In this document: positions 49,483 through 60,026 of the stretch, one piece after another
How the letters are laid out: every line of letters begins with the position of its first letter
How positions within the stretch are numbered: position 1 is the stretch's first letter
NCBI GenBank assembly: GCA_017525025.1
Contig: JAFXUJ010000007.1
Span: 1 to 64,000, forward strand
From: Elusimicrobiaceae bacterium
GTDB taxonomy: Bacteria; Elusimicrobiota; Elusimicrobia; Elusimicrobiales; Elusimicrobiaceae
Reading direction: 5' to 3'
DNA: 64,000 bases
Notes under the pieces: model-generated
What the model was told of the DNA's origin: nothing
What the model saw: the letters and a program-made list of their open reading frames with translations, nothing else
Database searches by the model: none
Translations under genes and position numbers: made by a program

Positions 49483-50505
49483 ATGAAAAAAGATGTTCTT
49501 ATCTTAGGGATAGAATCCACTTGCGATGAAACCTCCGCGGCTCTTTTAAAGGGCGGGCGGGAGCTCGTGACCAATGTGATTTATTCCCAAATTGAAGAGC
49601 ATAAAAAATATCACGGCGTCGTGCCGGAACTGGCCAGCCGGGCGCATGCCGCCAAAATTGCCGGTGTAATCGCGCAAGCTTTGGGCGATAGCCCGCTTGA
49701 TTATGTGGCTTTTGCCAGCGGGCCGGGGCTTCCGGGCGGGTTGGTGGTAGGACGGGTAGCCGCTGAAACCTTGGCCACCCTTAAACAAGTGCCTATGATT
49801 GGGGTTAACCATTTGGAAGGCCATCTTTTTGCTTGCGATTTTGAGGGAAACGAGGTTAAAAACCGGTTGCAATTTCCGCTAATAGCGTTGGTGGTTTCCG
49901 GCGGACATACGGAACTGTGGTATGTAAAAGGATACGGAGCATATAAAGTATTGGGCCGTACCCGGGATGACGCCGCCGGGGAAGCTTTTGACAAAGTGGC
50001 TAAATTACTGGGATTACCTTATCCGGGTGGGCCGCAAGTATCTAAGCAAGCTCTCGCCGGCCGACGGGATGCCATTAACTTCCCGCGGCCGCTTATGCCC
50101 GGAACGTGGGAGTTTTCATTTAGCGGTATCAAAACGGCCGTTAGTTACTACTTGCGCGACCATAAACAATTTGATATAGCGGATGTATGTGCCAGTTTTG
50201 AACAGGCCATGGTAGATACGCTAACCACTAAAACACTGGACGCCGCAGTCCGATATAAAGTAAAACATATTGCGGTTGGCGGAGGGGTAGCCGCTAACAC
50301 GTTACTGCGTGAACGTATGCAGACATTAGCAGCGCAACGGGGAATAGAAACACACTTTGTGGATCGGAAATTATCCTCCGATAATGCGGCCATGATTGCA
50401 TTAGCTGCGTACAAAAAGTTAGAATACGCAGAGCGTACCGGCCAAACCATTAAGGCCAATGTGAACATTGATCCCAATATGAAAGTTAAAAATTGGGGTA
50501 AGTAA
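49483..50505 (+). CDS. tsaD: tRNA threonylcarbamoyladenosine transferase TsaD
   Basis: A 340-residue ASKHA-fold enzyme that makes t6A37 in ANN-decoding tRNAs. The N-terminal LGIESTCDETSAALL, the metal motif HLEGHLFA, ALVVSGGHTEL, FSFSGIKTAV and GGGVAANTLLRE are all seen. It starts 7 bases after ctpA. Its stop codon is in frame with the next gene, which prevents any N-terminal extension of that gene. Confidence 0.97.
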   Translation: MKKDVLILGIESTCDETSAALLKGGRELVTNVIYSQIEEHKKYHGVVPELASRAHAAKIAGVIAQALGDSPLDYVAFASGPGLPGGLVVGRVAAETLATLKQVPMIGVNHLEGHLFACDFEGNEVKNRLQFPLIALVVSGGHTELWYVKGYGAYKVLGRTRDDAAGEAFDKVAKLLGLPYPGGPQVSKQALAGRRDAINFPRPLMPGTWEFSFSGIKTAVSYYLRDHKQFDIADVCASFEQAMVDTLTTKTLDAAVRYKVKHIAVGGGVAANTLLRERMQTLAAQRGIETHFVDRKLSSDNAAMIALAAYKKLEYAERTGQTIKANVNIDPNMKVKNWGK

Positions 50506-50514
50506 GGAGCAGGT

Positions 50515-51717
50515 ATGATTTTATGGGCAATGCCCGATTCGGGTGACCAAACAAAAGAAGATTACGCCACTTGGGTAGCTCTTTTTAAACAAGAGAACCC
50601 TACGGTAGATTTAACGGTGCGGGTATTTACGCGTAATATCTTGTGGCGACGTATATTTACATTGAAAGGCCCGATGCACGGCGAGGAAATGCCGGATTTA
50701 ATCCAAATTCCGCACTATTGGACGGCGTTACTCGTTAAAGCCGGCGTGGCAGAAAATCTCTCCCAACTGGACCCGGGGCTTTCCTTAGCCAGTTGCTTAC
50801 TGCCGCTTAAAGAAAATTGCTACCAACCGGGCACGAAAGATTTATATTCTTATCCGTGGTGGTTTGATTTAAGTGCGCTTCATTACCGCGCGGACCACTT
50901 GAAAATGGTAACCGATCACCCGGAAGAAGATTTAAAAACGTGGCAGGGGCTCCTTTCTATTTGTGCGGCCCTGCGGGAAAAATTCCGCGATGTCCCCGGC
51001 TATTATCCCATGCAAAATAGTGATTGGCGCGGTTCGCTCTCTATGCGTAGCGCGCTCCCGTGTGTGTGGAGCCGTGGAATCAGTTTTTTTACGGAGGACA
51101 GGGCCTCCTCGCTGATAGGAACAAGCGGGTTTAAAGAAGCGTTGCGCGATTATGTCAATTTAGCGTTGCATGATTATATGCCCATCTTGCGTGAACGCGG
51201 TTCACTGGGTACGATGGTTTCCGGCAAAGCCAGCATGATGATTTCACGTAAACAAGGTATCAGTACGTTTGGGGCGCGGCGTGGCGGACGGGTCCGCACC
51301 GTGCCGGTGCCGGCTACCGGAGAGAAAAGTTGTGCGTATCTATCGGGGATGAATTTGTTTATCAATGCCGCTTCCCAGCATAAACAAGATGCGTTAAAAT
51401 TTATTAAATTTTGCGCTCGGCCGGATATGCAACTTAGGTATGCTAACATGGTGGAAGCGTTCCCTGCGTTTGAGGAACCCTTTGAGCAATTTATTGCCTC
51501 TTCTTCCCGCTTGCCGATTTACAAGGGGATTCTATCTTCTGCCCGCACGTTGCCTAATATGGTCATTATGGGTACGGTGATGGAAATTTTAAAACGAGTG
51601 CTTGCGGTATGTGCGGAACAAATTGTAGAGAACCGCTTTACGCAAGCTTCATTGGATAGAGAACTGGAAATGACCGCCAAAGAAATTGATTACCTGCTAT
51701 CCATTTATAAGGGGTAA
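50515..51717 (+). CDS. Solute-binding-protein-like protein without signal peptide
   Basis: A 400-residue protein with the layout of family 1 extracellular solute-binding proteins (sugar ABC type): MILWAMPDSG at the start resembles the first mature strand; MPDLIQIPHYWTALLVKAG, YSYPWWFDLSALHYRAD and FGARRGGRVRTVPVP match the family pattern. There is no signal peptide or lipobox, and an in-frame stop lies 9 bases upstream, so none can be added. It is therefore predicted to be cytoplasmic. No permease or ATPase gene is near. A GAF-GAF-GGDEF gene starts 3 bases after its stop. It may be a ligand sensor for that cyclase; this is inferred from position only. Confidence 0.75.
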   Translation: MILWAMPDSGDQTKEDYATWVALFKQENPTVDLTVRVFTRNILWRRIFTLKGPMHGEEMPDLIQIPHYWTALLVKAGVAENLSQLDPGLSLASCLLPLKENCYQPGTKDLYSYPWWFDLSALHYRADHLKMVTDHPEEDLKTWQGLLSICAALREKFRDVPGYYPMQNSDWRGSLSMRSALPCVWSRGISFFTEDRASSLIGTSGFKEALRDYVNLALHDYMPILRERGSLGTMVSGKASMMISRKQGISTFGARRGGRVRTVPVPATGEKSCAYLSGMNLFINAASQHKQDALKFIKFCARPDMQLRYANMVEAFPAFEEPFEQFIASSSRLPIYKGILSSARTLPNMVIMGTVMEILKRVLAVCAEQIVENRFTQASLDRELEMTAKEIDYLLSIYKG

Positions 51718-51720
51718 GAT

Positions 51721-53283
51721 ATGTTTGATAAAAAATCTTATACACTTTACAAATTTCATAAACAAATCAACCAATCCTTTCAAAACAAACGCGAATTGTT
51801 GGAATGTGCGTTGCCGGCTTTGCGCGATTTGTTCAAATTGGATCGGGTATACTTTTTTAACTGGCAACAAGAGTGGGCACTTTTGTCCCTTAAAATGATG
51901 TGCAAAAAAGAATACTGCATGGATATGCAGGAAGATATTTCCGTGGCAAACGAACCTGCTTTCTTGCGTCAGTTATTACAAACAGGTATAGCGGAAACGA
52001 CGGATCTAAGCTATCCGGCGTTGTATGTGTTGATCCGTTGGAAACGGCCGAGTGTGGAATTAAAATCGGGTGAGATTCGTTCTGTCTTGCGGGAAAAAGT
52101 AGGTGTGCTCCGGTTGGAACGTTTTCGTAAAAACCGTGTTTTTACGCCGGCGGAAATTGATCTAATTAAAGATTTGGGTAAAGAAATTTCCCACAACTTG
52201 TACAACACGGAAATTGACCAAATCAAAAACCAGCGATTAAGCATGTCTACCGCGCTGAACGATTTATCCACGATTTTTGCTTCTTCCTTGCGTCTTAACG
52301 ACGGTTTGGAACTCATTTTAAAGGGGGTACAACGTTTCTTTCAGTTTGACCGCGTGCACTTATATTTAACCAACTCCGAGGGAACACGCATTAAATCGGT
52401 GTGGGGGGTAGATATATCGGGCACGGTCACGCAAGAGTCCGGCTCGTCCTTGGGCGAAGAAGAAAAACAAATTTTAAAAGAAGTATTTGAATCTTCTGCC
52501 ACGTACCGCGCGCGGCGCAGTATCGTATATATTCCGCTTAAATTGCAGCGCAGCAAAGTGGGTTTTTTGACGTTTGATAATATTCTTTCGCGGCGGAAAA
52601 TCGGGTATTTGGATTTTATTTCGCTTCAGCAATTTGCGTCTCAAATGGCACTGTCTATTGACAACGCACGGCTGTTTGAGCGCGTGCAAGAATTATCTAA
52701 TTACGACGAACTGACCAAGCTCCCCGTGCGTCGCTATTTCAACGAAAAATTCGCCGAAGAAATTTACCGCTCTAAACGGTTTGGGTTGTCGCTCTCGCTT
52801 ATCATCATGGACATTGACTGGTTCAAACAAATCAATGACAACCACGGACACCAAATTGGTGATTGGGCGTTAAAATCGGTGAGTAAAATTATTCGTTCTT
52901 GCCTGCGGCAGACGGATGTGCCGTGCCGCTTTGGGGGGGACGAAATGGTTATTATGCTTCCGCGCACCAATAGCGAAGAAGCTAAAATCATTGCCCGCCG
53001 TTTAAAAGAGCGTATCCACGCCATCACTTTGCCGGACCGGGATGCATTGGAACCGGTACATTTGAGCATCAGTCAAGGGATTGCCACCTTCCCGTCTGAT
53101 GGAGCCACGGTAGAAGCTTTGTTGGAAAAAGCTGATAAGGCGCTTTATGTAGTCAAACAGCGCGGCCGCGGAGATTTTGCCGTGTACCGCGAAGTGCTTG
53201 ATCAACTCCAGCCCGAGCCGGAAGAACAACCCGCCGTTGCGGATAAGCCCAAAGACGCGCAAGAAGATAAACAGCTCCCATAA
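51721..53283 (+). CDS. Diguanylate cyclase, GAF-GAF-GGDEF
   Basis: A 520-residue soluble protein with two GAF-like sensor regions (about 20-165 and 175-325) and a GGDEF domain (about 335-495). The active-site loop is GGDEM (405-409) with Met in the last place; metal and substrate residues in MDIDWFKQINDNHGHQIGD are intact. An inhibitory I-site RQTD lies five residues before the loop, so feedback by c-di-GMP is expected. A short acidic Pro/Glu tail ends it. No membrane segment is seen. It is the last gene of the run that began at 41.3 kb. Activity is likely but the Met variant should be tested. Confidence 0.88.
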   Translation: MFDKKSYTLYKFHKQINQSFQNKRELLECALPALRDLFKLDRVYFFNWQQEWALLSLKMMCKKEYCMDMQEDISVANEPAFLRQLLQTGIAETTDLSYPALYVLIRWKRPSVELKSGEIRSVLREKVGVLRLERFRKNRVFTPAEIDLIKDLGKEISHNLYNTEIDQIKNQRLSMSTALNDLSTIFASSLRLNDGLELILKGVQRFFQFDRVHLYLTNSEGTRIKSVWGVDISGTVTQESGSSLGEEEKQILKEVFESSATYRARRSIVYIPLKLQRSKVGFLTFDNILSRRKIGYLDFISLQQFASQMALSIDNARLFERVQELSNYDELTKLPVRRYFNEKFAEEIYRSKRFGLSLSLIIMDIDWFKQINDNHGHQIGDWALKSVSKIIRSCLRQTDVPCRFGGDEMVIMLPRTNSEEAKIIARRLKERIHAITLPDRDALEPVHLSISQGIATFPSDGATVEALLEKADKALYVVKQRGRGDFAVYREVLDQLQPEPEEQPAVADKPKDAQEDKQLP

Positions 53284-53445: not shown

Positions 53446-53564
53446 GTACTGTATCGGCGTGTTTTTGAAGAAACTTAAACGCGTCGTTTTGCGCGTTTAT
53501 TTTGGCGCATGGATTTGTTGTTATTAAATTTAAATTAAGGGTGCCCCACATAGGGATTATATAC
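53446..53564 (+). promoter_or_regulatory. Long 5' leader with hairpin
   Basis: A leader of about 119 bases precedes the ATG. It contains AAACGCG (53477-53483) and CGCGTTT (53492-53498), a 7-bp hairpin followed by ATTTT, which could act as an attenuator or stabilise the message. I recognise no riboswitch in it. AGGGA lies 9 bases before the ATG. Confidence 0.4.
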
Positions 53565-56500
53565 ATGAATAAAATTAAGAATTTACTTTCTGTTTCACTC
53601 GGTAAATTGGCCGCATTGGCTCTTTTATCGGCGGTAGTATTTGCAGCGGCTACGCCCGCCCTCGCGCAGACAGCAGATGTACGTTATGCCGGTGTGTTTT
53701 ATCAGGATAATCCTTCCACTGTTAACGGTATGTACTGTGATTATGCCATAGAAACTTTTGGAACTGCCGGTAATAAAAGTAATGTGCAATTTCTAAACGA
53801 TATTGTGCAATTCAATTTTACCGGAAACACTTTTGGGGAAGGAAGCCCGGTAACCATACGGTATCAGTTTGACCACAATACAACGACAGCCCCTACTTCC
53901 ATTTCGGAACGCCAAACAAATACGGCGTACAGTTTGGGAGATCAGTTTTATTTATTATACAACGGTAATTATTTAGTATTTTCTGTAACCCAAGCCGGTA
54001 CAACATCCGACAATACCAATGCGCAAATGTTGTTTTTGATGGCAACCCTTTTTGGAAGCTTTACTTATCCTTCTACGCCAATTACAGATGGTTCATTAAC
54101 GGTTTCTTATTCTACCTCCGGTTCCGGTAGCGAGCGCATTCCCGGGGCCCCCTACGGTGTAGGAGATACTTATTGGGTGGAAGATTCTGCCGGTATTAGA
54201 CGATATTTCACAGTTACGAATGCTACCCAAACCAGTAGTGGTATTAATATCGCCGCGGGAACTGTTGACAACCGCAGTTTTACGCATGGTATTTCCCCTA
54301 GTAGTTCCCAAAACGGGACGGATCCGTGGGTCAGCTCTGCTCTTATTGAATATGACCAACCTTATCCGTCGGCAGTTCCGTCGCAAAATGAGTATCCTAA
54401 CCATTGTTTAGCTCTTTGTATGAACGTGGTGTGTACGAATAAGCCCATGTCTCAAAGTACGTATTCTATTGCGTTTCCGTTACAAAACATTAAGTTTGAC
54501 ATCGTTAAATACTATAACAACAAGAACGTAGAAAACCCGGAAGAAACTCCCGCAGTTCGCACCATTGACTTGTACCCGGACTTGGAAGAAGCTAAATGTG
54601 GGTCGTATGCCTGTGGCGGTGCAGTCGCCGGGAATCCTTGCACATCAGCCGAATATGTTTGCGATAGAAATATTTGTAACTATTGGTGTACAGGTTCTGG
54701 GTGTGAAGAGTCAGATTTTAAAAATATGTGCCACAAGAGGACGGAGTCTGGTGGCTATCAATGGAACGATAGCGCTCAATGTTGTAGGATTTCCGATAGT
54801 ACGGATTGCGATGTCCCAAGCAATGTTTGTGGTAATTATGGCGAAAACTGCATGATTTTTAATAACGATGGTACCCCAACCAATCAAGCTATTCCGTTCT
54901 GTGCGGCGTGGGATGGGTCATACGATATCGCGGGCGAATTTGGTAAAACAAACGGTACATTTGCTTTCCGCGCGACGGTAGCCACGGACGTGCCCGGCGA
55001 TAATATCATTACCGATAAAATCCAATTCAATTCTACGATTGCCTACCCGGGTATGAACCAAATACCGATACGGGTAGACGTAACCAACATCCATACCGTG
55101 CGCAGTACGCCCAGTTTGGTGGGTAACATTACTGCCGTTTCCGCCCAGCCGTATACGTATGCGTATCGGTTGAGTAAGGATTCAGATGTACGCATTGCCG
55201 TCATGGATGCCTCTACGGACGACGATGTGCAATACGGAGCTACATCAAGCCAAACCGGAGACCCAGCCTATATCTGGGACGTTGCTTCTCGCGATATTGT
55301 CCGCACCTTAGTAGATTGGCAACCGCGATTAGGCGAAGGTATGAAAGGGATTGACCCGGACGTGCAAATTACGGAATTTGACTCTTGGGACGGCCGCAAT
55401 GACGACGGGCTTTTCTTGCCGGCGGGTAATTATGTGGTAGCCTTGCAAGCCAAATCACAAGACGAATGGCCGGGGATTGACTTCTCCCGTGCCGTTACGC
55501 GTCAACTTTCGTTAGACCCCTTGAAACTGACCGACGTGGTAGCTACCGGCTTAACCAAACAGTCTACGGCGTATGCCAGTATAGCTTATACACCGACGGA
55601 ATCTTCTAAAGTATATTGGTATATATACACGCCGGGTACAACTTTTGGCAATGATGTTTCCACTCCCAATGCGGTATTGACCAACTCGGCCGCTCCTACA
55701 GGTACGGAACCCAGTGTTACCGGGGCGACCGGGAGCCCTGTTTTTGTGTTAACGGAAGACCGCGTGGGACGTATGAATTTTACCAGCAAATGGAACGGAT
55801 TATGCGGTATGGACGGCACGGTGCCTTTCCACTTGGCCCAAAACCAAGCGTATCCTACGGGGGCTGTAGATAATTTGCCCGGGCAAAACCCGCAACCGTT
55901 AACCGGGACCTGTACGAATGCGGATGGTTGTACCTATTATATGCCCCAGTGCGTGCGCACCTATGCCGAACATGAAAAGATGTCCGACGGCGGTTACTGC
56001 GGAGACACGCTTCACCCGTTTGTATCGGGCAATATCTGCCAAGAAACATTTGAATACGGGGCTCCGTTACCGGACGGCAATTACGTCTATGCCTTGTGGG
56101 CGGAAATCCCGTATAACGGTTGTTACTACAATAAATCCAGTAGTTGGACGGACGGTACGAACACAGCCCCGTATTTTGATGCCGGTAATGCGTGCGGCGC
56201 TAACGGTACTTTGCCTAACGGGGCCTTGAATGGCCAAGCTTTTAGCGGTGTAAAAACCTTAAAATATGATATCGGCCAAGTGGCTATTGAACGCGGTGTA
56301 GTGGATATTACCATGCAGCCGGTCAGCTACTCTACCGTGGGTTCCAGCCCGACGGCGTTTGGTTTGGATCCGTTCATTTTCAAATACTCTATTGCGCGTG
56401 ATGCTACCGTGGTAGCCAAAGTAACCAACAGCGCCGGTACCGTTACGGTTAAGTACTTAACGCCGGAAACCGGTATTACCCAAGTGGCCCAACAGATGAA

Positions 56501-58943
56501 TACCCTCTCTTGGGACGGACGGGATGACGCCGGCCGTATGGTTTACCCCGGTACTTATATGTTTGTGGTAGAAGCTAAAGATGCCATGTTCCCGGCGGTA
56601 ACGAATCGTGCGTCTGTGGTGTTCCCGGTGGATATGTACCGCTTGGTGGACCTCTCTACTACCGATGTGTACGGCGACAGCAATGCAAAAGCGACTTTGT
56701 CTTACACGCTTTCCAAAGCGATGAACGTGCAGGTAAATATATATAATAAGGATATCGTCATTCCCAATTACAATTCTGCTACCGGGGATTATAACGATAT
56801 CACGATTACGTCCAGTGCTACGGGTATGGGATATGCAGATGCGCTCCCGGCCTCGCTTACCTTTACTTTGAGTGACGGTTCTACGTATACGGGAACTTCC
56901 GCAACGGAAGGTACGGAAACGATCTATGCTACGACTTACCGCGATACGATCACGACCCGCTACAACCCCAGCTACGATGGTACCTCTACTACGTGTGATC
57001 CGACGGATCCGATGACGTGTCAGTATCGTATCTCTGTCCTACGTGAATACTTTACAACGTCGGCCACCAGTGTGGCTGCTTGGCCGCCGCGGTTGTGCGA
57101 CCAAACGACGGATGCGGCAAACTTTGTCGGCGGATATGTAGACCCCGCTACCCGGCCGCAATGTATTTATGTAAACGATACGGCTTTCACCAATTACCCG
57201 GCGGATGCGGCAGAGGCTGCTTCCGGTGTGGTAGATGTGCGCTTGCAGCCAGTCCACACCATTGAACGCACTGCTTTGAAACCGGGGGATGGTTTACAAC
57301 TGATGGAAGAGTGGGATGCGCTCTATTTCTACAATCCGCTTAAGTGCCCGGCTAACTCTACCAACTTAAAGAACTGCTTATATGAAATGGTGCCGGATGG
57401 ATCGTATCCGTTCTTTGTATCGGCTCGCTCCAATGAACCGTTTGACCGCTACTATTATAATGAAGCGACGGACGGCCCCATGACGGATCCTGCTACCGGT
57501 ACCAACTATGTGGACGGGGCTCCGTTTAGAACCATGGCCGATACCAAACAAGAAAGCTACCTCTACGCCACGGATAAAGCTGTCAGCAAACTGAACATTA
57601 CCCGCGGCCCGGTGTATTTCTTGGACGGCTCTACGGTTGTGTATCCCAATGCTCCGCAACTCTTTAATGTATCGTCCGGCCCGGTGTTCATCCCGCCGTA
57701 CGAAATTAACTTCTCCGTGTCCCGTGCGGCCACGGTGGAAGTAGCGATTGTGGCGTTACAGCCCGGTGTTTGTAACCCGGACCCGACCGTCCACCAAGAC
57801 TTGAAGAACAACATTGCCGGAGATATTTGTAAGTTTATCTCTACCATGACAATTGCCAATACGGGCCACTTTGACCCGACCATTGTTCGCAAGGCTTATT
57901 GGGACGGTACCGATAATAACGGTTACTACGTTAAACCGGGTATTTATGAAGTACGCTTAACCGCTAAAAACTACCCGGATCCCGGCCTGTATCAAACGAC
58001 CGTTAAGAGTATTACCGTCAATGCGGACCTCTTAAAAGTGTTTGATTTGTTGGAAGCCGATGGATACGCTATTGCCCAACGCGGTACCGATATGAAGATT
58101 AGCTATCAATTATCCGTACCGATGAAAGTAGGTATTCAAATTTTCAAACCGGGTACCACTATTTACGATTACCAAAAAGGCACCTTGCGTAACCCCACCA
58201 CGGGTTCGGAAGTGAAAGATATTCGTGAAGTTTTGGTTAAGGCTATCACCGGTATCCGCCCCGGCACTACGCTGATTGAAGAAGTCTGGGACGGAACGGA
58301 CTACGCCGGCCAAGAAGTGCCTGACGGAACCTATCCGTTCCGCTTTGTAACGGCCTTGAACTCGGCCGATATTGACTCGGTAACGGGTGAGATTATTGGG
58401 GATTGGGCCCAAACGGATGGCGACCCCAACCCGGCCAACTGGAAGGTCAACCGCGTGGCTGATACGTATGAGTATCAAAACTTGCACAAAGCCACCATTG
58501 CTATCGGGGACGGACGCTTCGTCTGCGAAGACTGGGAGAAAACGGTATTCTTCTATCCCAACCCGTTTAATACTACCAACGGTACGCTTGAAATTACCAA
58601 GATGCCGGTGCCGGGTGAAATGTCCATTAAATACTATAACCTGGCGGGCGACTTAGTGCGTGATAGCGAATACACTTGTGTGGATGCCAATAACTATCAA
58701 GTAACTATGGGTAGTAGTTTAACGTTCAACCCGGATAACACACCGGACGGCTCCACACAGATGTCGGAAGCGGATTTACTGGCCTTCCCCAACGTACGCA
58801 ACGCGGCGATGCGCTGCCGCTGGGATAAGAACAACCAGCACAAGAAGAAAGTTGCGCGCGGTGTATACTTCGCCTTGGTAGATTTTAAAGCGAAAATGGG
58901 CCGCGAGCATTGCCAAAAAGTTGTAAAGATTTTGATTCCGTAA
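53565..58943 (+). CDS. Giant secreted protein with FlgD-like Ig repeats and a T9SS-like C-terminal domain
   Basis: A 1792-residue protein. Signal peptide (1-34, ending TPALA-Q) is followed by a unique N-terminal region and a Cys-rich stretch (about 345-440). Then come at least six FlgD-like Ig modules, each marked by W-D/N-G and a PxGxYxxxxxA strand (Trp at 608, 743, 983, 1250, 1446 and 1575). The C-terminal part starts with YPNPF (1664-1668) and ends with a GVYFALVDFKAK and KVVKILIP pair, which resembles type A sorting domains of type IX secretion. The ATG at 53565 is the first residue of the signal peptide. A PorV-like gene follows. It is probably displayed on or released from the surface; its target is unknown. 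Confidence 0.82.
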   Translation: MNKIKNLLSVSLGKLAALALLSAVVFAAATPALAQTADVRYAGVFYQDNPSTVNGMYCDYAIETFGTAGNKSNVQFLNDIVQFNFTGNTFGEGSPVTIRYQFDHNTTTAPTSISERQTNTAYSLGDQFYLLYNGNYLVFSVTQAGTTSDNTNAQMLFLMATLFGSFTYPSTPITDGSLTVSYSTSGSGSERIPGAPYGVGDTYWVEDSAGIRRYFTVTNATQTSSGINIAAGTVDNRSFTHGISPSSSQNGTDPWVSSALIEYDQPYPSAVPSQNEYPNHCLALCMNVVCTNKPMSQSTYSIAFPLQNIKFDIVKYYNNKNVENPEETPAVRTIDLYPDLEEAKCGSYACGGAVAGNPCTSAEYVCDRNICNYWCTGSGCEESDFKNMCHKRTESGGYQWNDSAQCCRISDSTDCDVPSNVCGNYGENCMIFNNDGTPTNQAIPFCAAWDGSYDIAGEFGKTNGTFAFRATVATDVPGDNIITDKIQFNSTIAYPGMNQIPIRVDVTNIHTVRSTPSLVGNITAVSAQPYTYAYRLSKDSDVRIAVMDASTDDDVQYGATSSQTGDPAYIWDVASRDIVRTLVDWQPRLGEGMKGIDPDVQITEFDSWDGRNDDGLFLPAGNYVVALQAKSQDEWPGIDFSRAVTRQLSLDPLKLTDVVATGLTKQSTAYASIAYTPTESSKVYWYIYTPGTTFGNDVSTPNAVLTNSAAPTGTEPSVTGATGSPVFVLTEDRVGRMNFTSKWNGLCGMDGTVPFHLAQNQAYPTGAVDNLPGQNPQPLTGTCTNADGCTYYMPQCVRTYAEHEKMSDGGYCGDTLHPFVSGNICQETFEYGAPLPDGNYVYALWAEIPYNGCYYNKSSSWTDGTNTAPYFDAGNACGANGTLPNGALNGQAFSGVKTLKYDIGQVAIERGVVDITMQPVSYSTVGSSPTAFGLDPFIFKYSIARDATVVAKVTNSAGTVTVKYLTPETGITQVAQQMNTLSWDGRDDAGRMVYPGTYMFVVEAKDAMFPAVTNRASVVFPVDMYRLVDLSTTDVYGDSNAKATLSYTLSKAMNVQVNIYNKDIVIPNYNSATGDYNDITITSSATGMGYADALPASLTFTLSDGSTYTGTSATEGTETIYATTYRDTITTRYNPSYDGTSTTCDPTDPMTCQYRISVLREYFTTSATSVAAWPPRLCDQTTDAANFVGGYVDPATRPQCIYVNDTAFTNYPADAAEAASGVVDVRLQPVHTIERTALKPGDGLQLMEEWDALYFYNPLKCPANSTNLKNCLYEMVPDGSYPFFVSARSNEPFDRYYYNEATDGPMTDPATGTNYVDGAPFRTMADTKQESYLYATDKAVSKLNITRGPVYFLDGSTVVYPNAPQLFNVSSGPVFIPPYEINFSVSRAATVEVAIVALQPGVCNPDPTVHQDLKNNIAGDICKFISTMTIANTGHFDPTIVRKAYWDGTDNNGYYVKPGIYEVRLTAKNYPDPGLYQTTVKSITVNADLLKVFDLLEADGYAIAQRGTDMKISYQLSVPMKVGIQIFKPGTTIYDYQKGTLRNPTTGSEVKDIREVLVKAITGIRPGTTLIEEVWDGTDYAGQEVPDGTYPFRFVTALNSADIDSVTGEIIGDWAQTDGDPNPANWKVNRVADTYEYQNLHKATIAIGDGRFVCEDWEKTVFFYPNPFNTTNGTLEITKMPVPGEMSIKYYNLAGDLVRDSEYTCVDANNYQVTMGSSLTFNPDNTPDGSTQMSEADLLAFPNVRNAAMRCRWDKNNQHKKKVARGVYFALVDFKAKMGREHCQKVVKILIP

Positions 58944-58949
58944 CTTGCG

Positions 58950-58967
58950 CGGGGGCGTAAGCCCCCG
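58950..58967 (+). terminator. GC hairpin, possible weak terminator
   Basis: CGGGGGC-GTAA-GCCCCCG is a perfect 7-bp hairpin just after the giant gene, but no T tract follows. It may protect the mRNA end or reduce read-through into the PorV-like gene. Confidence 0.4.
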
Positions 58968-59045
58968 GCAGGCGGAAAAACAAGCAGTAGCAGTAAATGT
59001 TGTGTGAAGTTAAATTAACTTTTCCGGAGAAACGGAACGAGATTT

Positions 59046-60026
59046 ATGAATATCAAAATGAAAGTTTTAGCAGTTTGTTTAGCCGTCGGTTTGAGTGGAT
59101 TGCCCGCTTGGGCCGATATTAACGATTATGCCGGTACCAGCGCGAGTGCATTTTTGAAAATCGGTGCCGGAACTCCTACCGCACAGGCGTTAGGTAATGC
59201 CTATGTGTCTGTTGCGGAGGGGCCGGAAGCCCTATTTTGGAACCCGGCCGGGGCTGCTTCGGCAACGACGCGTGAACTGCAATTTTCGTATTTGAGTTAT
59301 TTACAAGGATATAAAGCCCGTACGTTGGCGTATTTGCAACCCATTGGTAAAACTATTTTGGGTGTTTCACTCAATTATATGGACATGGATGATTTTGATT
59401 TCCGCGACTATTGGGGACACCAACAACCGGAAATCGGCGTGCCGGTGCAGAATTTTGTAGGTAGTTTATCCATCGCCCGCGGACTTTTTAACCAAAAAAT
59501 ACAAATCGGTGGTACCGCCAAGTATATTAGTGAACGTTTGTATAATGGTTCCGGCCATAATCACTACGATAATGTGGGCTTTGATGTGGGAGCCAAATTG
59601 CGCTTAGTAAAATGGTTGGGATTGGGCGGCGCTTTGGTTAATATCGGCGATAGAGATGAAATGCCTAAAGGGTTACGTTTAGGTGCGGATTTGAATACGC
59701 GCTATTTTACCGTTTCCGGCGAATATATGAAGTATGAAGACGATAATGTACGCTACGGCGTAGGTTTAGCCGTGCACATCCCGGAAGATTTACTGCAAGT
59801 AGCCCGATTTGATTTGCGCGTAGGTTATTACACGCGCACTAATACAGGGGTAAGTGAAGAATCCTGGGTATCGGATATAGGGTTAGAAGAGACCTCCCGG
59901 GTATCTTTTGGTTTCGGCCTTTATAGCTCGGAACTGTTTGGGTACGGGGCCTCGGTAGATTACGCGGTAACTCCGTTTGGAGCGCTCGGAACATCGCACC
60001 AAGTGGCGGTTTCCATACAATTTTAG
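59046..60026 (+). CDS. PorV/PorQ-family outer-membrane protein
   Basis: A 326-residue beta-barrel protein with signal peptide (1-23, ending PAWA). The family N-terminus SASAFLKIGAGTPTAQALGNAYVSVAEGPEALFWNPAG is clear, followed by alternating strands and a terminal Phe (VAVSIQF) as in outer-membrane proteins. In Bacteroidetes, PorV shuttles type IX cargo; here the presumed cargo gene is directly upstream. No other type IX component is in the window. It is followed after 2 bases by a small prepilin gene, so it may share the Tad transcript. Confidence 0.85.
   Translation: MNIKMKVLAVCLAVGLSGLPAWADINDYAGTSASAFLKIGAGTPTAQALGNAYVSVAEGPEALFWNPAGAASATTRELQFSYLSYLQGYKARTLAYLQPIGKTILGVSLNYMDMDDFDFRDYWGHQQPEIGVPVQNFVGSLSIARGLFNQKIQIGGTAKYISERLYNGSGHNHYDNVGFDVGAKLRLVKWLGLGGALVNIGDRDEMPKGLRLGADLNTRYFTVSGEYMKYEDDNVRYGVGLAVHIPEDLLQVARFDLRVGYYTRTNTGVSEESWVSDIGLEETSRVSFGFGLYSSELFGYGASVDYAVTPFGALGTSHQVAVSIQF

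Follow-up and report, generated by a model that had tools for sequence, protein, structure and literature searches.

Ligand binding makes a solute-binding protein (SBP) close and expose a surface that it did not have before, and in systems of the NspS-MbaA type the gene for such a protein typically adjoins that of a c-di-GMP enzyme. SiaC of Pseudomonas aeruginosa has a cytosolic role and, unlike the SBP described below, is not known to have the SBP fold; LacI-type sensors are fused to DNA-binding domains. As far as the accessible parts of the sources go, ligand-loaded SBPs activate transmembrane receptors, c-di-GMP enzymes included (PMC9602780), and the SBP fold is also used inside the cell, in cytosolic SBP-fold proteins and domains (PMC9602780, PMC8846402). 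The gene pair reported here resembles each of these systems in part. It would share with the NspS-MbaA type, to the extent that the available text describes it, a ligand-binding SBP working with a c-di-GMP enzyme, with SiaC-SiaD (7e6g) the binding of a diguanylate cyclase by a separate activator protein, and with LacI-type Periplas_BP domains and cytosolic single-domain proteins matching SBP Pfam models an intracellular SBP fold. It differs from the first in that the NspS-type SBP is extracytosolic and its receptor transmembrane, whereas both proteins of our pair are soluble and predicted to be cytosolic, and from LacI-type sensors in that its SBP is free-standing, of sugar type and partnered by a GGDEF enzyme. 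The SBP-driven signalling known so far crosses the membrane; in our pair an SBP of importer type seems to have become permanently cytosolic and bound to a second-messenger enzyme. The pair suggests that SBP-driven second-messenger control has moved into the cytoplasm, and with it a new way of sensing a sugar-like compound there. We found no description of a cytosolic SBP-cyclase pair in the open-access literature (subscription journals and preprints lay outside the scope), and the arrangement is undescribed as far as searched. Present in much of a little-studied phylum and in a few genomes from another, the pair would supply a mostly uncultured bacterial group with a defined two-protein sensor that is easy to express, and would show how transport proteins get recruited as intracellular sensors.

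The window, by which we mean the whole 64,000-nucleotide stretch of DNA analysed, carries the features below; family labels run from f1 to f29, f1 being the window's own family and f2 another family of its order.

49483-50505, + strand: tsaD, the upstream neighbour of the pair in f1, f2, f9, f10 and f12-f14
50503-50514, + strand: tsaD TAA in the SBP frame (50503-50505), then GGAG (50506-50509), a likely ribosome-binding site
50515-51717, + strand: signal-less solute-binding protein, SBP_bac_8/SBP_bac_1 fold, 400 aa (from ORF, Pfam and homologue comparison)
50644-50646, + strand: W44 of the SBP, invariant (156/156 aligned signal-less members)
50719-50721, + strand: W69 of the SBP (153/156), aligned with the Trp changed in the engineered Thermus variant 7c6z
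50854-50868, + strand: PWWFD, SBP residues 114-118 (P114 156/156, W115 150/156, D/E118 151/156)
51682-51708, + strand: C-terminal tail EIDYLLSIY, SBP residues 390-398, a tail type common to most signal-less members
51721-53283, + strand: soluble diguanylate cyclase, 520 aa, GAF-GAF-GGDEF (from ORF, Pfam, model, hhalign and hydropathy)
51799-52191, + strand: divergent first GAF (GAF1), about residues 27-157, from hhalign against GAF2
52303-52659, + strand: second GAF (GAF2), residues 195-313 (weak Pfam GAF at 195-315)
52699-53169, + strand: GGDEF domain, with RxxD (RQTD) from 52906 and active-site GGDEM at 52933-52947

The SBP gene runs from the ATG at 50515 to the TAA at 51715-51717, and the bases GGAGCAGGT lie between that ATG and the tsaD TAA. 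Because tsaD's own TAA is an in-frame stop 9 nt (three codons) before the SBP ATG, no room is left for a signal peptide or N-terminal extension, and a missed upstream start is ruled out. The protein begins with MILWAMPDSG, a mature-type start at the first mature strand, and no hydrophobic leader is found in residues 1-40. A Kyte-Doolittle scan over 19 residues peaks at 1.69 for the SBP and 0.94 for the cyclase (2.59 for the control FtsX, encoded in the window) and finds no membrane-like segment in either protein. Coordinates and hydropathy thus agree with the earlier note, made from the DNA letters and their open reading frames, which had described an SBP without signal peptide and with an in-frame stop 9 bases upstream. 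Pfam matches the protein to SBP_bac_8 (1.6e-15, 58.1 bits, cut-off 27), the profile spanning the two-lobed domain, and to SBP_bac_1 (9e-10, 39.5 bits, cut-off 26). Of the properties expected of these families, export by signal peptide or lipobox is not met by the window SBP, and a cognate ABC permease is not met by the window genome. This genome (1.55 Mb, 99.24% complete) has one SBP of the family, three GGDEF domains and only two BPD_transp_1 (PF00528) permeases, the best NCBIfam relatives of which are of the peptide/nickel type (Dpp/Opp/Nik), with both typing queries partial and below the curated cut-offs. With both permeases peptide-type, the genome-wide PF00528 search found no sugar ABC permease for the SBP to serve; nor is any transporter present at the locus, as had also been claimed from the sequence beforehand. 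AlphaFold prediction of the SBP from its single sequence reached a pLDDT of 37, and the SBP alignments contain no stretch conserved enough for a degenerate-pattern search.

The cyclase gene (ATG 51721, TAA 53281-53283) starts 3 nt past the SBP stop. Pfam detects GGDEF (2e-45, 154.9 bits) and a weak GAF at residues 195-315, with no match in the N-terminal region of the first GAF; a GAF1 profile built from 125 relatives aligns to the GAF2 profile with an hhalign probability of 92-95%, which indicates that the GAF-GAF-GGDEF architecture is right. Pfam, hhalign and hydropathy together support the earlier description of the next gene, 3 bases on, as that of a soluble two-GAF cyclase. The GGDEF domain has the expected signature (stretch RQTDVPCRFGGDEM, with Met for Phe), metal-site Asp and RxxD motif; D364/D366, R396/D399 and G405-E408 are conserved, and production of c-di-GMP by the window cyclase is inferred on sequence grounds. 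GGDEM (window 52933-52947) is the motif in the window's genus, most other paired cyclases having GGDEI or GGDEV and a few (L045, L064, L069) GGDEF proper. The AlphaFold model of the cyclase has a mean pLDDT of 72.9, with GAF1 poor, and its PDB matches support only a sensor-GGDEF enzyme. In one relative (G182) the paired cyclase (L047:7498-10419) carries a C-terminal extension of about 470 residues without a confident Pfam match. As likely c-di-GMP effectors, the window genome encodes one PilZ protein and one MshEN-type ATPase.

The gene-level facts, i.e. signal absence, pairing and clade, are firm. The cyclase lies directly downstream of the SBP in 163 of 169 loci of the window's phylum, one locus per genome (85 from f1, 57 from f2 and 27 from twelve other families), and in the six loci without a cyclase the contig ends 0, 145, 146, 324, 357 and 438 bp past the SBP. 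The gene-neighbour search proposed in the earlier note thereby finds the pairing conserved in relatives; the same census rules out a single-assembly artefact. A further genome of the phylum outside the 169 (G175) also has the pair. From SBP stop to cyclase start the median distance is 3 nt, with at most 30 nt in 142 of the 163 and overlap (negative distances) in 27, and none of the loci read showed the two joined in a fusion protein. Of what defines the NspS-MbaA type, an SBP gene beside a c-di-GMP enzyme gene is met (163/169 loci), and an extracytosolic SBP and a transmembrane receptor with a periplasmic domain are not (cyclase hydropathy 0.94). In all 164 readable SBP N-termini the nearest start codon lies -3 to +12 residues from the domain start, and an in-frame stop is found no more than 15 codons upstream in 134. 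Of the 30 whose open frame extends further, G134 is preceded by a hydrophobic stretch that has a usable start, and a longer protein is not excluded there; in G010 a mildly hydrophobic stretch has no start codon before it.

A search of 340 genomes of the window's phylum with the SBP matched 187, exported relatives included, and the cyclase profile matched 183 of the same 340 at E 1e-60 or better, the weakest of which are probably unpaired cyclases. Complete paired members mostly score 260-540 bits, with two at 204-213 and those of f11 at 60-93. No signal-less SBP was found in seven f1/f2 genomes, six of which (G037, G067, G089, G095, G101, G117) are 69-81% complete; the seventh, G046, reaches 92% completeness but is 6% contaminated. 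Among the genomes searched with the profile, f15 and f21 gave no match above 110 bits, indicating that not all of the phylum has the pair. Beyond it, where two phyla were searched in breadth together with a few single genomes, 3 of 384 genomes of a second phylum (that of the Candidatus Omnitrophica genome G342) carry the pair, by itself.

The pairing greatly exceeds what chance would give: against 163/169, a cyclase is adjacent in none of 18 lower-scoring SBP-family ORFs of the window's phylum, several of which are exported SBPs fused to a permease, and when 80 loci around generic GGDEF cyclases of other phyla were examined, none contained an SBP of the same family. The latter count rules out pairing as a general habit of GAF-GGDEF cyclases, and a contig scan of other bacteria with the cyclase alignment returned generic cyclases only. 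Outside the phylum, the best SBP relatives are exported. In Herpetosiphon the SBP is a lipoprotein, and its neighbours are a permease-like ORF and a LacI-type regulator (names given by reading the sequences), and 10 of 400 genomes of its phylum reach E 1e-45, with top scores of at most 197 bits and no paired-type cyclase at those 10 loci. A first tree, built from 51 signal-less SBPs and 21 that are exported or other, splits the two sets on one branch (support 100/97); in a second, of 72 rows with the two outside phyla added and 13 rows omitted, the split of 43 signal-less rows from 29 labelled exported has support 99/93 and is present in 98% of bootstrap trees. As placed by these trees, the root of which is not independently known and in which f11 sits on a long branch, the paired SBPs are one clade apart from exported ABC-type relatives, and exported orthologues occur only outside it. 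Orthologues with signal peptides and ABC permeases would have refuted the earlier note; none was found, the orthologues being signal-less with no permease replacing the pairing. Its interpretation, a cytoplasmic binding protein reporting a ligand to the cyclase, is supported, with contact, ligand and effect on the cyclase inferred.

Some relatives depart from these patterns. L344, labelled exported in the second tree, is without a recognisable signal peptide; in L344 and L346:7507-8724, both from the phylum of G343, the related SBP has no permease or cyclase beside it and adjoins an alcohol-dehydrogenase-like gene, and is possibly an independent cytosolic SBP. L187, L188, L189, L191 and L192, from the window's phylum, are long ORFs with a hydrophobic leader, an SBP domain and an ABC-permease-like C-terminal half, and L316-L318 and L320-L326, from the phylum of G342, are similar ORFs recognised only by similar length and leader; all of these look like SBP-permease fusions.

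Profile comparison gives as closest solved homologues of the window SBP a Thermus thermophilus SBP (7c63/7c6f, E 2.5e-66) and Clostridium thermocellum CbpB (7x0i, 9.6e-62), so that by this measure its nearest solved structures are cellodextrin/beta-glucoside-type SBPs. We take 7c63 to be the Thermus thermophilus beta-glucosides-binding protein of the beta-glucosides paper. The Thermus protein and CbpB are exported parts of ABC importers, whereas the window SBP has neither signal peptide nor sugar permease and has a cyclase as partner. Within the Thermus set, some deposited constructs carry Ala where others have Trp or Glu; we take these for pocket mutants, and two of the changed positions align with window W69 and D118, the latter with the Glu changed in variant 7c71. 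W4, W44, P114 and W143 are invariant in the 156 aligned signal-less SBPs, and the acid at position 118 is absent in 5. The near-invariant Trp and acid positions suggest a working carbohydrate-type cleft, predicted without binding data, as opposed to a dead fold. For CbpB, the accessible part of its description (PMC9601137) gives cellodextrin affinities of 0.56-1.9 micromolar; we do not claim that the window SBP binds the same sugar. Furthermore, the SBPs of f11 are so divergent (60-93 bits) that ligand binding may not persist in all members.

The reading that we hold to be probable is that a cytosolic SBP of carbohydrate type acts as the gate of its partner cyclase, with contact, ligand, direction of control and enzyme activity all inferred. 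SBP and cyclase would form one cytosolic signalling unit: a sugar-ABC-type SBP would have lost its signal peptide, apparently once, in the ancestor of the paired clade, and would then have become the permanent partner of a soluble GAF-GAF-GGDEF cyclase. Most likely retaining its two-lobed clamp, it would bind a carbohydrate-like metabolite in the cytoplasm, and in its open or closed form would dock on the cyclase, with the rapidly evolving first GAF as the probable site, and would control how much c-di-GMP is made for effectors, for instance the PilZ protein and the MshEN-type ATPase. GAF1 is the proposed docking site since no other part of the cyclase evolves as fast (mean distance 2.12, with 0.93 for GAF2 and 0.57 for GGDEF). 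On the SBP side, the tail EIDYLLSIY is inferred to be a candidate docking element or cyclase contact; its strict pattern is met by 118 of 162 signal-less members versus 1 of 21 exported ones, many of the misses being near-variants and the f11 tails differing outright. Once TsaD is allowed for, the rates of SBP and cyclase correlate moderately overall (partial r 0.72), and of the three domains GAF1 gives the strongest distance correlation with the SBP (0.67). In f2, however, no cyclase domain follows SBP divergence as closely as TsaD does (0.98), and the rate correlation is therefore only suggestive and no proof of contact. The lack of fusion proteins and the GGDEM active site in place of GGDEF also count against this reading.

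The SBP might instead be an obligate structural partner that stabilises the cyclase or serves it as a scaffold, with a clamp that has ceased to respond to ligand. Pairing would then explain the conservation without any ligand, the loss of the acid at 118 in 5 of 156 members and the strong divergence of the f11 SBPs would be accommodated, and SiaC-SiaD (7e6g) offers a solved cyclase complex with a separate activator protein; near-invariance of the cleft Trp and acid positions across 156 sequences would, however, be unusual for a mere scaffold, and we regard this explanation as unlikely without dismissing it. It is also conceivable that the two genes are merely co-transcribed, the SBP buffering or delivering a cytosolic sugar and the cyclase sensing by its own GAFs. 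GAF domains can indeed bind small ligands themselves, as described for Lcd1, Tlr0485 and DcpA in the accessible part of the source (PMC8846402), but the pair remains intact through at least three neighbourhoods in two phyla and its reading frames overlap at the start of the cyclase in 27 of 163 loci; such persistent pairing and overlapping starts argue for stoichiometric co-production and make separate roles a decidedly doubtful proposition. Finally, that the SBP belongs by fold to an exported family with exported relatives in the same phylum leaves room for export by a non-classical route or from an unseen start, feeding a distant permease. We give this next to no credence in view of the in-frame stop directly upstream, a window genome with only peptide-type permeases, and exported relatives that fall on the other side of the tree.

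Within the gating of the cyclase by its SBP, a more specific proposal, speculative and in our judgement quite improbable, would have the SBP sense, inside the cell, a beta-linked disaccharide from the wall or from a glycan, e.g. a cellobiose-like product of peptidoglycan recycling. If true, wall turnover (FtsX, EnvC-type and CtpA proteins of the same gene run) would be tied to c-di-GMP in Elusimicrobium-like lineages, and in two phyla a family of periplasmic nutrient-binding proteins would have given rise to a checkpoint sensor in the cytosol.

The pair outlasts its surroundings, occurring in at least three neighbourhoods across two phyla. A run including envC, ctpA and tsaD precedes it in f1, f2, f10, f12, f13 and f14, with ftsX also part of the run in f1, f2 and f13 and glgA upstream as well in f1. 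In two deeper lineages, f20 and f22, the order is exported lipoprotein SBP, two permeases, signal-less SBP and cyclase, the upstream operon being an ABC importer of sugar type that has an exported SBP of its own. Within this operon f22 also has an MFS_2 sugar-symporter gene (L225:6575-8068), which supports the carbohydrate theme. The neighbours differ again in f4-f7, and in the second phylum the pair stands alone between genes that are presumably thpR-like and cinA-like. Downstream of the pair in the window (53502-60026) lie a 1813-aa ORF and then a 326-aa ORF, relatives of which follow the pair in several f1 genomes; relatives of the 1813-aa ORF are also found farther downstream in several other families.
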